From assembly GCA_009784025.1 (NCBI GenBank), contig WQVK01000001.1, positions 1 through 64,000 of the forward strand: a stretch of DNA of 64,000 nucleotides, given 5' to 3'. The DNA is from Defluviitaleaceae bacterium (lineage in GTDB: Bacteria > Bacillota > Clostridia > Lachnospirales > WQUN01). The notes beneath the pieces were generated by a model. It was not told the DNA's origin. It searched no databases and was given only the letters and a program-made list of their open reading frames with translations. Made by a program: the position numbers and the translations under genes. This document shows positions 8,214-57,866 of the stretch, piece after piece (within the stretch, counting starts at the first letter, position 1; the number at the start of each line of letters is the position of its first letter).

Positions 8214-8240
8214 CAGTTGGTCGCAATTTGCGACCAACTG
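8214..8240. repeat. cagttggtcgcaatttgcgaccaactg palindrome, copy 1
   Basis: Perfect 27-bp palindrome; same family at 26405, 46900 and 52010. Confidence 0.85.
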
Positions 8241-13756: not shown

Positions 13757-13775
13757 GAAGAACTCTAATAAAAAA

Positions 13776-13827
13776 ATGGTACCATACGGTACCATAAACC
13801 GGCGAAAATGGTACCGCATGGTACCAC
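13776..13827. repeat. GGTACC double-hairpin module, copy 2
   Basis: atggtaccatacggtaccat...atggtaccgcatggtacca. Confidence 0.9.
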
Positions 13828-14119
13828 ATTTTGGAAAAAACGCATGTTTTGCCTTCGGGTATACGCAAAAAACCGCTAAACAAGCCACTTCTTTAAAAAT
13901 AAAAAACACAAAAGTAAAAACTTCTGTGTTTTTGGCTCAAAAATTAAAGTTTTTGCCCCTCTTTTTTTCAAAAAGAGGGTGGGTGTGGGCTGGTCGGTTG
14001 CTACGCAACTTGCTTGCCTTAGCATCCTGAGGCAAAGCCCACGGTTTCAATCTTTACAATTTCTTTACAAATTCGCCCCCGCAATATGTTATACTGTGCA
14101 GGATTTTTAATTTAAAGGA

Positions 14120-21906: not shown

Positions 21907-22111
21907 GATTGTTCCTCCTGTTTTGTTGGATTTGGTGAATCCTTAGTTTGTTGATTTTACCAGTGGTGTTGGCGCGCTGTCAAATTGTTTTGGGGTGATG
22001 TGTTTATATTGTTGTGTGAGGTTGGTACGATGGCAAAATATCTCTAATGATGACACGCAAAAAACATCAATGTGTTCTATTTTGTTCAAAAACGAGTGTT
22101 TTTATGTAAAA

Positions 22112-22164
22112 AATGGTACCGTATGGTACCATTTTCTTTGAATTATGGTACCATACGGTACCAT
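22112..22164. repeat. GGTACC double-hairpin module, copy 3
   Basis: atggtaccgtatggtaccat...atggtaccatacggtaccat. Confidence 0.9.
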
Positions 22165-22304
22165 TTTTGCCGCAAAAAACGTATATTCTGCTATCCCTCC
22201 CACAAGAAAACCCGCCAAACAAGCCACTTTTTTTGAAAAAACAACAAACGCGTAAAATAATAAAATCACCTGTGTATTTTTTGCATAAAAAAAGCGGAGC
22301 ATCA

Positions 22305-26404: not shown

Positions 26405-26431
26405 CAGTTGGTCGCAATTTGCGACCAACTG
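26405..26431. repeat. cagttggtcgcaatttgcgaccaactg palindrome, copy 2
   Basis: Identical to 8214-8240; followed by a family C end fragment tatagtgaaataat. Confidence 0.85.
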
Positions 26432-27280: not shown

Positions 27281-27681
27281 TCTTGGTTTTATATATCCTA
27301 TTCCAGCATATACTACTTTATACTAATCTCAATAGATTTTTTCCGAAATTACGTTTTTAATTTCGGAAAAGTTACATTTTTAATCTTTTGCTTCTTTTGA
27401 GGTAACCCAGAAGAAACCGGACGGCAGGTCGTGCCGGGTTCGCCGAGCGAACCTTATGAAATTACGTTTTTTGCAATTTCAGAAGAGCTCTAATAAAAAA
27501 TCGCCTCATCGTACGCGGCAAGTTTGCCCTAAGGCGCATTGCCTCGGCGCTTTAGAGTGCTGCTCCAAGTTGTTGTTTTAATTTGAGATTAGTATTCACC
27601 AAAAACGTGATTTAAGAAGAAACAAAAAATTGAAATGGTAACTTTTTCAAAATCAAAAAGCGCGATTTCAAAAGAAGTATA

Positions 27682-35637: not shown

Positions 35638-35887
35638 AAGAAGTCCTCTTTTGTCGAATTTTACTTTATGTTAATTATGATTAGTGAAAGTGTCAATACA
35701 CAGTGCGGGCTTGGTCTTGTTACAAAATGTGTGCAGATGTGCAGTGTGTGGCCTTGAGTATAATTGGTAAATTTTAGAGAAAAATTACGCTATTTTTTAT
35801 TTTGCTTTTATTTTCTTGGCAAAAATGGCTTATTTGGCGGGTTTCTTTGTGTGCGAGGGTGTGAAATATGCGTTTTTTTACGAAAAA

Positions 35888-35940
35888 GTGGTACCATACG
35901 GTACCATTTTCTTCGGATTATGGTACCGTATGGTACCATT
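35888..35940. repeat. GGTACC double-hairpin module, copy 4
   Basis: tggtaccatacggtaccat...atggtaccgtatggtaccat. Confidence 0.9.
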
Positions 35941-36082
35941 TTTTTGATAAAACGGGACGAAAAACTATATTTTTGTCGCTTAGACAAAATACCAACGACG
36001 AATATTTTCACACAAAAGCTGCCCGCAAAACCCATAAAAATTTATCCTCTTTTGCCCGCCGCAAGGTGGCAGAAAAAACATC

Positions 36083-41912: not shown

Positions 41913-42062
41913 TTCCTTGCAGATTATGGTCTGTGAGGTTTTTTTTGTGTACGCGGATATCCTGAGGGTTGCCGCGCTATACTATACAGGGAGGCTTTTG
42001 ATAAGACCGGTTTCAACTAATTACAATCTGTAATTAGTTGGTTTGGATAATTCCCGTAGGTT

Positions 42063-43580: not shown

Positions 43581-43845
43581 TTTTTCACCACCTTTCGATT
43601 GTAAAGATGGGGTTACTTTATGCAAGTTTGAGTGTTTTTTATACGTAGAAAATTTTTGAATTATCGTTCTTCCGAAATTACAAGAAACGTGATTTCATAA
43701 GGTTCGCTTGGCGAACCCGGCACTTCGTGCTGCCCGGTTTCTTCCGGGTTGCCTCAGAAGAAGCAAAAGATTGAAAATATAACTTTTTCGAAATCAAAAA
43801 GCTTGATTTCGAAAGAAGTCTATTGTTATAAAAGGAGTTGTTTTT

Positions 43846-45182: not shown

Positions 45183-45866
45183 ATGGGTATTTTATCAAGA
45201 TTTGCAGACATCGTTTCTGCCAACATTAACGCGCTTTTGGATAAGGCGGAAGACCCTGGCAAAATGGTGGACCAGTACATGCGTAAGATGACCAATGACC
45301 TGGCGCAGGTTAAGAAGGAAACCGCAGGGGTAATGGCAGAGGAAAGCCGCACAAAACGGCTGGTGCAAGAGAACGAGAAGGAAGTTGCTAAGTTTACAGA
45401 GCTTGCAAAGCGGGCGCTGGTGTCTGGCAGCGAAGATGATGCCAGGGTTTTCTTGGCGAAGAAGCATGAGCTTGAAGATGTTGGTGCCGGGCTGCAAACT
45501 GCGGCCGCTGCGGCCCATGAAAACGCCATAAAAATGCGCCAAATGCATGATAAGCTTGTAAAGGACATAAACACGCTAAACGCCCGCCGCCAAACCATTA
45601 AGGCCAAGGCAGCAGTGGCAAGAACCCAGGATAAGGTCAACAAGCTAAGTGGCGTGGCCAGCGGCGCAGAAGGCGCAATGAGCGCATTTAGCCGTATGGA
45701 AGATAAAATCAACATGAAACTTGACATGGCCAACGCAGAGGCAGAGCTTAACTCATCCCCAATTGACGCGGCTTTGGCACTGGAAGAGAAGTATAAGGGC
45801 GTGAATGTGGATTCTTCTGTATGTGACGAGCTTGCGGCCATGAAGGCGCAACTTGGGTTAAATTAG
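45183..45866 (+). CDS. pspA: PspA/IM30 family protein
   Basis: MGILSRFADIVSANINALLDKAEDPGKMVDQYMRKM; SD aaggagg. Confidence 0.93.
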   Translation: MGILSRFADIVSANINALLDKAEDPGKMVDQYMRKMTNDLAQVKKETAGVMAEESRTKRLVQENEKEVAKFTELAKRALVSGSEDDARVFLAKKHELEDVGAGLQTAAAAAHENAIKMRQMHDKLVKDINTLNARRQTIKAKAAVARTQDKVNKLSGVASGAEGAMSAFSRMEDKINMKLDMANAEAELNSSPIDAALALEEKYKGVNVDSSVCDELAAMKAQLGLN

Positions 45867-47896
45867 TGGCAAAAGATACGGCGTTACAAGGCAAATTTAT
45901 GGGTAATGCCCGGGGTTTCGGGTTTGTAATTGCCCAGGAAGATAGAGGCGGAGATGTTTTCATCCCGCCTCATTTTACGTTTGGCGCGCTTAATGGGGAT
46001 TTAGTGCGGTATGTTTTGGACGATGCCAGCAAATGGCGCGACAGCGGCCAGCCAGAAGGCCGGGTGCTGGAAGTTTTGCAGCGCGAGCCTATGGTGGGTA
46101 CGTATTTTGTGGATGCAGGCCAGGGTTATGTGCGCCCTGTGGATGCGAGAATGCCCTGTGATTTTGCAGTGTCTGCCAAAACAGTGAAGAAATTTGGCCT
46201 GGTAGATGGGTTGCGGGTGGCCTTTTCTGTAGATATGGCCCTACGGCCAGATTTAGAGCTGGCTAATGCCTATGTGATAAAGGTGCTGGGGCATGTGAAC
46301 GACCCCGGCGTAGATGTGCTTTCTTTGGTGTACGAGGCCGGGGTGCCGTATGAATTCCCAGAAAATGCGACGGCAGAAGCCGCCGCTCTGCCGGATGATG
46401 TTAACCCAGCCAGCCAAAAAGGCCGCCGTGACCTGCGCAGCCAGCTAATATTCACCATAGATGGCGACGATACCAAGGATATAGACGATGGGATTTCATT
46501 TGAGGTGAAGCCCGATGGTTACAGGCTTGGGGTGCATATTGCAGATGTCTCCCATTATGTAGCGGCAGGGGGCGCGCTAGATGGCGAGGCCTTTGCCCGT
46601 GGCACAAGCATTTACCTGGCAGATAGGGTGATTCCTATGCTACCACATAAGTTATCCAGCGGGGTTTGCTCGCTTTTGCCTGGTGTGGACAGGCTTAGCC
46701 TTAGTTGTGTGATGGAAATAGACCAGCGCGGAAATGTGCTGGAATACGAGATTTTTGAATCTGTAATATGCAGCAAAAAACGCCTGACATACGACCAGGT
46801 ACAGGCTGAGCTAGCGCCTGACGGCGAGCATACCCGTGAAAACGCGGGCGGCGTTTTTGTATACGACTCACAGCCGGTTGCAGGCGATACGGCGAAAACA
46901 AATCCAATTGGTCGCAAAATGCGACCAACTGGATTTGAACCAGACTGGCCAACCCTCTTCCATCAAATGAACGGCCTACGAGAGATTCTGTACAACAAGC
47001 GCTTAGCCAACGGCGCGCTAGACTTCGATTTATCCGAAACAAAAATCCGGGTAGATGAGGCCGGCCGCCCAATTTCCGTAGAGCCACATAAGCGCAACCA
47101 GGCAACAGGCATAATCGAAGAATTCATGATACTTTGCAACGAAACAATAGCCACTCATCTGCTGGGGCATGGCCTGCCAGGGGTGTTTCGCACCCACGAG
47201 GCCCCAAGCGCCGCAAAGCTGGCTGCGCTGCAACCCATGGCAAAAGGCTTTGGCATAAGCATCCCAAAAAAGGCCGAAAAACCAATGGCCTTGCAGCGGC
47301 TGCTTTCTGCCACTGCCAACAGCCCCGCCGCCGCAGTGGTAGCTCAGGGGGTGCTGCGCAGCCTTCCCCAGGCTCATTACACCCCAGACAGCCCCGGCCA
47401 CTACGGCCTGGCCTCTGCCGCATACTGCCATTTCACATCACCCATCCGCCGCTACGCAGACCTTACCTTACACCGCATTTTAAAAGCCTGGCTTGGCAGA
47501 AAAACCACCCCCGTAACCGAAAACCTACCCGCAATATGCGCCCAATGTTCCACCACAGAGCGCATAGCCGAAGCCCTAGAACGGGAAGTAACCCAGCTTA
47601 AAAAAGTTCAATTCATGGAAGGCCAAGAAGGCCAAACCTACAACGCAACCGTAAGCGGCGTAACCCCCCGCGGCATATTCGTAATGCTAAAAAACACAAT
47701 AGAAGGCATGATACCCGCCACCAACCTAACCAAATACGATTTCAAATTCGACAAAGAAAAAAACATCTACATCAGACGCAGCAAGAAAAAATCCCGCACA
47801 AAAAACGAAGCCCTGTACCCTGGCGCTACAGTAAAGGTGCGGCTGGCGCATGTCTCGCAAGAGGAGATGAAGCTTACGTTTGTGCTCGGTCTGTGA
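45866..47896 (+). CDS. rnr: Ribonuclease R with internal repeat-derived insertion
   Basis: RNB motifs TIDGDDTKDIDDGISFEV, FTSPIRRYADLTLHRIL; C-terminal S1 domain. Confidence 0.94.
   Translation: MAKDTALQGKFMGNARGFGFVIAQEDRGGDVFIPPHFTFGALNGDLVRYVLDDASKWRDSGQPEGRVLEVLQREPMVGTYFVDAGQGYVRPVDARMPCDFAVSAKTVKKFGLVDGLRVAFSVDMALRPDLELANAYVIKVLGHVNDPGVDVLSLVYEAGVPYEFPENATAEAAALPDDVNPASQKGRRDLRSQLIFTIDGDDTKDIDDGISFEVKPDGYRLGVHIADVSHYVAAGGALDGEAFARGTSIYLADRVIPMLPHKLSSGVCSLLPGVDRLSLSCVMEIDQRGNVLEYEIFESVICSKKRLTYDQVQAELAPDGEHTRENAGGVFVYDSQPVAGDTAKTNPIGRKMRPTGFEPDWPTLFHQMNGLREILYNKRLANGALDFDLSETKIRVDEAGRPISVEPHKRNQATGIIEEFMILCNETIATHLLGHGLPGVFRTHEAPSAAKLAALQPMAKGFGISIPKKAEKPMALQRLLSATANSPAAAVVAQGVLRSLPQAHYTPDSPGHYGLASAAYCHFTSPIRRYADLTLHRILKAWLGRKTTPVTENLPAICAQCSTTERIAEALEREVTQLKKVQFMEGQEGQTYNATVSGVTPRGIFVMLKNTIEGMIPATNLTKYDFKFDKEKNIYIRRSKKKSRTKNEALYPGATVKVRLAHVSQEEMKLTFVLGL
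46900..46936. repeat. Palindrome copy 3, in frame inside rnr
   Basis: aaatccaattggtcgcaaaatgcgaccaactggattt. Confidence 0.85.
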
Positions 47897-52009: not shown

Positions 52010-52044
52010 AATTCAGTTGATCGGAAATTCCGACCAACTGAATT
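52010..52044. repeat. Palindrome copy 4, upstream of the RSH gene
   Basis: aattcagttgatcggaaattccgaccaactgaatt. Confidence 0.8.
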
Positions 52045-57606: not shown

Positions 57607-57707
57607 AGATAGAAATTAAATTTACATGTAAAATATTCTTTAACAATGGCGTAAGTCCGGGCTTTTTTGGCTATCACAACATCATTTTCGCATCAAAACG
57701 CCATAAA

Positions 57708-57760
57708 AATGGTACCATACGGTACCATTTTACCCGAATTATGGTACCATACGGTACCAC
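57708..57760. repeat. GGTACC double-hairpin module, copy 5
   Basis: atggtaccatacggtaccatttt...atggtaccatacggtacca. Confidence 0.9.
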
Positions 57761-57866
57761 GTTTACAGTTTTTTGGAGATGTTGGAGGCTGGTCGGTTGC
57801 TATGCAACCTGCTGCCCAAGCATCCAGGGCGAAGCCTCTTGACGGCTTTAAATAAGGAGACGACGA

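Follow-up and report, generated by a model that had tools for sequence, protein, structure and literature searches.

A 27-nt palindrome in frame within RNase R of a Defluviitaleaceae bacterium: one copy of a dispersed family that is probably paired with a Bro-N gene

Introduction

The rnr gene of a Defluviitaleaceae bacterium carries, within its reading frame, a palindrome that also occurs between genes of the same genome, which raises the question of how a short repeat comes to be translated as part of a conserved ribonuclease and what spreads it. An earlier note, made on the 64,000-nucleotide stretch of DNA analysed here (hereafter the window), had proposed that this palindrome belongs to a dispersed family, that it lies in an extra segment of RNase R, and that it parallels the in-frame palindromic elements (RPEs) of Rickettsia. 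We followed these claims in the window, in its genome and in related genomes, and from there to a family of genes encoding the Bro-N domain.

Genomes and sequences analysed

The window is contig C1 of the MAG G000 (2.14 Mb, 82% complete). The closest named relatives of its RNase R are those of MAGs filed as Defluviitaleaceae, whose isolate codes we take to denote termite guts. The sets searched held no second species of the genus of G000, and the second genome with the repeat, G027 (94% complete), belongs to another genus. Copies were inspected in sampled DNA of G000 (822 kb) and G027 (683 kb), and the family genomes, all of them MAGs, were sampled at 100–822 kb each. Gene calls were heuristic; copies were counted as in-gene when they lay well within an ORF of 150 aa or more. 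An assembly artefact is unlikely, because separate MAGs of different genera behave alike.

The palindrome in rnr

The features of the window are collected in Table 1. The core of the rnr palindrome pairs throughout except at one position (A at 46907, facing C at 46929), and the 39-nt hairpin formed with its flanks has a folding energy of −24.9 kcal/mol (z = −9.9 for a 42-nt stretch). In the reading frame of rnr the encoded residues are preceded by KTN and followed by FEP.

Table 1. Positions of the features in the window.
Feature	Position	Strand	Remarks
Intergenic copy	8214..8240	.	exact CGCA subfamily
Intergenic copy	26405..26431	.	exact CGCA subfamily
Second-family palindrome CAACTAATTACAATCTGTAATTAGTTG	42014..42040	.	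one mismatch versus Bro-N gene L341
rnr, RNase R, 676 aa	45866..47896	+	ORF intact; domains OB_RNB, CSD2, RNB, S1
Disordered RNase R loop holding the element, residues 320-356	46823..46933	+	AlphaFold2, pLDDT<50; length-variable in relatives
Extended palindrome, 18-bp arms, CAAATC-core-GATTTG	46899..46937	.	six extra flanking pairs per side
27-nt palindromic element, CGCA subfamily, in frame in rnr	46905..46931	.	core CAATTGGTCGCAAAATGCGACCAACTG; aa PIGRKMRPTG
Intergenic copy	52014..52040	.	CGGA subfamily, one mismatch

The extra segment of RNase R is real: the loop comprises 88 residues in the window versus 44–68 in the aligned relatives, and tblastn matches to this RNase R are interrupted at residues ~316/~360 in almost all of them. 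In the alignment, relatives without the repeat also lack the segment. The palindrome, however, explains just 9–13 of the extra residues, so that the claim holds for the segment but for a small part of it only as regards the repeat. The approximately 20 residues preceding the palindrome (DNA 46838–46895) are unique sequence, not repeated in G000, and a candidate second repeat in the insert (CCCGTGAAAACGCGGG) was rejected, its single look-alike being attributable to chance. In the AlphaFold2 model (mean pLDDT 86) the element falls in the disordered loop, which lies between helices 309–316 and 361–381.

A dispersed family matched to Bro-N genes

Membership of the rnr palindrome in a dispersed family was borne out, with 165 copies in G000 (control, a reversed pattern: 0). 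The window itself holds four matches, the rnr copy and the three intergenic ones, versus 0 expected in 100 shuffles. A further 78 copies were found in the one other genus of NCBI Defluviitaleaceae represented by G027. No match to this pattern was obtained in four congeners of G027 or in 32 further genomes of the family, 36 in all. The window holds two other repeats. One is a palindromic family distinct from the present one, with paired GGTACC-N4-GGTACC units and A/T tracts (2328–2397, 13762–13831, 22099–22168, 35874–35975 and 57695–57764); the other is dispersed, measures 164 nt, contains palindromes of the TTCGCTTCGCGAACCCGGC type and occurs in both orientations (27337–27500, 43654–43817 and relatives).

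The sequence of the element recurs inside the genome's own Bro-N gene. Bro-N gene L346 of G000 carries the exact CGGA form, of which 75 copies lie within two mismatches, 41 of them exact, in 822 kb; for the CGCA subfamily, which includes the rnr copy, no exact Bro-N counterpart was found in the 82%-complete assembly. A second dispersed family of G000 corresponds to its other Bro-N gene, L341; this family has 18 copies in 822 kb at up to two mismatches, and one member is present in the window (Table 1). In the sampled DNA of G027, the palindromes of L348 and L345 have 23 and 8 copies, respectively, within two mismatches. For G018 and G033, with Bro-N palindromes unrelated to that of L346, dispersed copies were predicted from the Bro-N gene before looking, and were found: the L343 palindrome occurs in 101 kb of G018 as 11 exact copies, and that of L340 in 198 kb of G033 as three, one in each case being the Bro-N site itself. 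The match between a dispersed palindrome and the genome's own Bro-N gene was thus seen in four genomes, and cross-matching between genomes is limited to G000 and G027, which share one family. None of the six Bro-N palindromes occurred within two mismatches in G007, G011, G015 or G023 (100 kb each); among these controls a Bro-N match was present in G011 only, and its short Bro-N palindrome (9/12 pairs) had no copies in the 100 kb. These matches point to a previously undescribed pairing of a gene with a spreading repeat; no description of it was found in the open-licence papers searched.

The short genes L346, L341, L343, L340, L345 and L348 all score above the Pfam gathering cut-off for Bro-N (25.6 bits, PF02498), and L350 has no Pfam Bro-N match; a Bro-N protein of G000 has 152 aa and that of G018 149 aa. 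In the loci read, no conserved partner gene accompanies the short Bro-N genes, and the 367-aa ORF that follows L346 has no Pfam match. Searches found no relatives of the short Bro-N genes in viral contigs and no solved structures for Bro-N. In G018, a purK-like ORF beside the Bro-N gene (L343 121–1401) carries in-frame repeats (ADFARAKRGVGTGDMC..), apparently of another in-frame repeat family.

A palindrome at a fixed position of Bro-N genes

Bro-N genes (PF02498) from the family, IMG/VR, phages and plasmids, including those of Bacteroidota, Campylobacterota, Rickettsiales and Spirochaetota, were aligned, and an in-frame 27-nt palindrome (12-3-12) was found at one fixed position, where it takes many unrelated sequences while its pairing is kept. 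The 52 distinct sites comprise 48 distinct left arms and form on average 10.0 of 12 pairs, compared with 6.0 expected from synonymous codons (Z = 22, a nominal value because the sites are not independent by descent) and 3.1 at other offsets of the same genes. Re-dealing the arms gave 5.6 pairs (sd 0.24, maximum 6.5 in 1000). The palindrome falls at the same codon in 44 of the 52 distinct sequences, their arms being unrelated. On this comparison, constraint at the Bro-N site acts on DNA pairing rather than on the protein alone.

In 391 genomes of the class, matches to the element outside the family were single copies in four genomes only (G196, G243, G281 and G380); the three of these that were read all lie inside Bro-N-type genes, encoding ..EEGSQLVTNCHQLKM.., i.e. 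frame 0 of the element. Likewise, no second copy of the palindrome was found within ~10 kb of the long, phage- or plasmid-type Bro-N genes, bar one weak hairpin with six mismatches. A palindromic Bro-N gene alone therefore does not cause dispersal, which would be specific to the short Bro-N type or to these hosts. Three IMG/VR contigs carry sequences of the kind described here: L307 (614–640) has CAGTTGGTCGGAATTTCCGACCAACTG, of the G000 CGGA type, outside the listed ORFs, and L308 (3710–3736) and L310 (5736–5762) share CAGTTGGTTCCATTTTGGAACCAACTG just before an AGGAGGT-like motif. On the Arcobacter cloacae plasmid pACLO (L444 2995–3891), a Bro-N gene with a 12/12 palindrome lies within a type I-B CRISPR operon, flanked by cas4 and cas1, as if by insertion of a single gene.

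Form and placement of the copies

The copies are uniform in length, 146 of the 147 sampled in G000 and G027 being exactly 27 nt, and mostly perfect palindromes. Their inner pairs vary on both sides together, which defines the CGCA, CGGA, GGCA and TGCA subfamilies, and in G000 their outer bases are nearly invariant. Copies in G000 are all or nothing: sites with 4–7 mismatches are no commoner than in a Markov control, and nearly all half-sites are part of a palindrome, with almost no isolated ones. This gap at 4–7 mismatches is absent in G027, which has more diverged subfamilies. Intergenic copies occur in tandem, divergent and convergent gaps with no clear preference, some of them just 3′ of stop codons.

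Several familiar explanations were rejected on these grounds. A pure terminator role does not account for copies in divergent gaps and within genes, while a DNA uptake sequence, for which abundant single copies would be expected, or a split-terminus transposon does not fit the near absence of isolated half-sites in G000. Neither the Y1 transposase of RAYT type (Y1_Tnp, PF01797) nor a reverse transcriptase (PF00078) was found in G000 or G027 (82% and 94% complete), and both were set aside as mobilisers, the latter including a retron- or DGR-type patch.

The copies could also be sites of use to the host, that is, operators or chromosome-organisation sites of a Bro-N regulator that were selected from existing sequence, the copy in the Bro-N gene being autoregulatory. 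Bro-N is annotated as a DNA-binding phage-regulator domain, and the near-invariant outer bases, the copies just past stop codons and the above-control resemblance of native codons to the element at replaced sites (see below) would all agree with such a role. Against it, G000 shows no excess of partial matches and almost no isolated half-sites; binding by a dimer does not need the inner pairs to change on both sides, and the intergenic copies have no clear preference of gap orientation. We regard this explanation as unlikely.

Somewhat less likely still, in our judgement, is a selfish hairpin made of DNA only, spread by replication template switching or microhomology patching with no dedicated protein, for which the Bro-N gene would merely be a vehicle. 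Template switching can keep the arms of palindromes perfect (PMC8794818), in agreement with the perfect arms and compensatory changes seen here, and the lack of both mobilisers in G000 and G027 and the mosaic-looking edges of the copies in rsmH and a pgm-like gene point in the same direction. Template switching alone, however, leads to locus-specific palindromes and not to one sequence at 165 loci, and the exact length of 27 nt suggests a defined unit.

Copies inside genes

Translated copies, for which the earlier note had suggested a search, were found in frame in further genes, about 14 of the 82 copies sampled in G000 and about 14 of the 65 in G027. Two of the three frames of the element are open, and the third runs into TGA if the element is followed by an A; in fmt, the clear case of a frame-2 copy in a real gene, this TGA is abolished by a change of a terminal base. 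The encoded nonapeptide is QLVAxCDQL in frame 0 and SVGRNLRPT in frame 1, and the frame used differs between host genes. The affected genes with Pfam support include rnr, ntpB (V-ATPase B), an MtaB-like methylthiotransferase, rsmH, DNA polymerase III alpha and fmt in G000, and asd, rsmE, an ECF-type ATPase, smc, queG, a SIS isomerase, a TldD/PmbA protein and a UvrA-like protein in G027. Palindromes of the L345 type are also in frame in apparent tgt and NAD kinase genes and in a third ORF of G027 (L188 3825 and 11365; L161 14162).

At six conserved sites (asd, smc, SIS, uvrA-like, pgm-like and rsmH) there is zero net length change versus orthologues, from which we infer that nine native codons were probably replaced in place by the palindrome, as judged from protein alignments with relatives ~55–80% identical and not from true empty sites. 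The replacement nonapeptide of asd forms a confident helix in the predicted structure. Net additions were observed in ntpB (+17 aa), tldD (+17 aa) and rsmE (+15 aa), as well as in rnr, all of them in loose loops. These additions are what an ordinary insertion element of RPE or MITE type would leave, mobilised by an unrecognised transposase and landing in Bro-N genes by chance. Such an element does not explain the six sites without net change, nor the occurrence of unrelated arms at the same codon in 44 of the 52 Bro-N sequences, and a chance landing on one 27-bp site has an expectation of only ~0.002 per genome (165 × 27 / 2.1 Mb), yet the match recurs in four genomes. This evidence weighs strongly against chance landing, and we consider the explanation very improbable.

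At the six gapless sites the native codons share 11.2 of 27 positions with the element, versus 7.0 for control placements, and the resemblance resides mostly at second codon positions, i.e. in the hydrophobic pattern. Such a pattern is as expected if only tolerated copies survive. Microhomology at the ends of the element is not claimed, as the position profile at the replaced sites reflects codon second positions.

Comparison with known systems

RPEs and the protein-coding palindromes of Wolbachia lie in frame in conserved genes and also between genes (PMC10969869, PMC2229807). The parallel with RPEs drawn for this Clostridia-like genome stands as a resemblance, the element being likewise a dispersed palindrome found between genes as well as in frame within them. 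It fails in other respects: RPEs are ~105–150 bp long, have a conserved peptide of their own and are described as insertions, whereas the present element has 27 bp and no own conserved reading frame, appears to have replaced native codons in several conserved genes, and agrees in sequence with the palindrome of the genome's Bro-N gene, a match that would not be expected from the RPE comparison.

REPs and REPINs are short dispersed palindromes of which a genome has several groups, each tied to a RAYT gene of its own (PMC3116915), and so resemble the present families in the pairing of gene and repeat as well as in the number of groups. REPs are, however, located in extragenic space near the RAYT gene, whereas the palindrome described here lies inside coding sequence and its tie is to Bro-N genes, which makes the likeness one of analogy only. 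Prokaryotic MITEs (Correia/NEMIS, ERIC, RUP) are also small non-coding inverted-repeat elements that are sometimes fused in frame, but they measure ~100–200 bp and usually have a TIR and a target duplication, in contrast to the perfect palindrome of 27 bp described here, which at several sites adds no net length. Finally, perfect inverted repeats of up to 284 bp have been reported within conserved coding sequence in the mitochondria of four species of Nematomorpha (PMC6649704); the embedding is alike, whereas here a single 27-nt sequence occupies many loci and matches a Bro-N gene.

Proposed explanation and its significance

Taken against these alternatives, the palindrome of rnr is probably a copy of a 27-bp palindromic micro-element that occurs in high copy number and is paired with a Bro-N gene. 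The predicted Bro-N protein would recognise the palindrome, as duplex or as hairpin, and the element would be copied as a 27-nt patch to new sites, mostly intergenic and sometimes over codons. Each genome's family may have been seeded by a horizontally acquired Bro-N gene, and in-gene copies would survive only where the nonapeptide is tolerated, in amphipathic helices or in loose loops such as that of RNase R.

A more specific version, which we put forward tentatively and with less conviction than the pairing itself, is that Bro-N targets its own gene. The palindrome would then encode part of the variable segment of the protein and at the same time be its recognition site in the DNA, so that protein and target change together; in the lineages with short Bro-N genes, this self-targeting may drive genome-wide patch copying and thereby rewrite codons of essential genes in place.

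Bro-N is a widespread domain of phages and plasmids, and a fixed in-frame palindrome that is constrained at the DNA level and matches a genome-specific dispersed repeat gives a direct handle on what this domain recognises. The spread of in-frame palindromes becomes testable with a 150-aa protein and 27 bp of DNA, and it would represent a new route by which repeats rewrite protein sequence in place.
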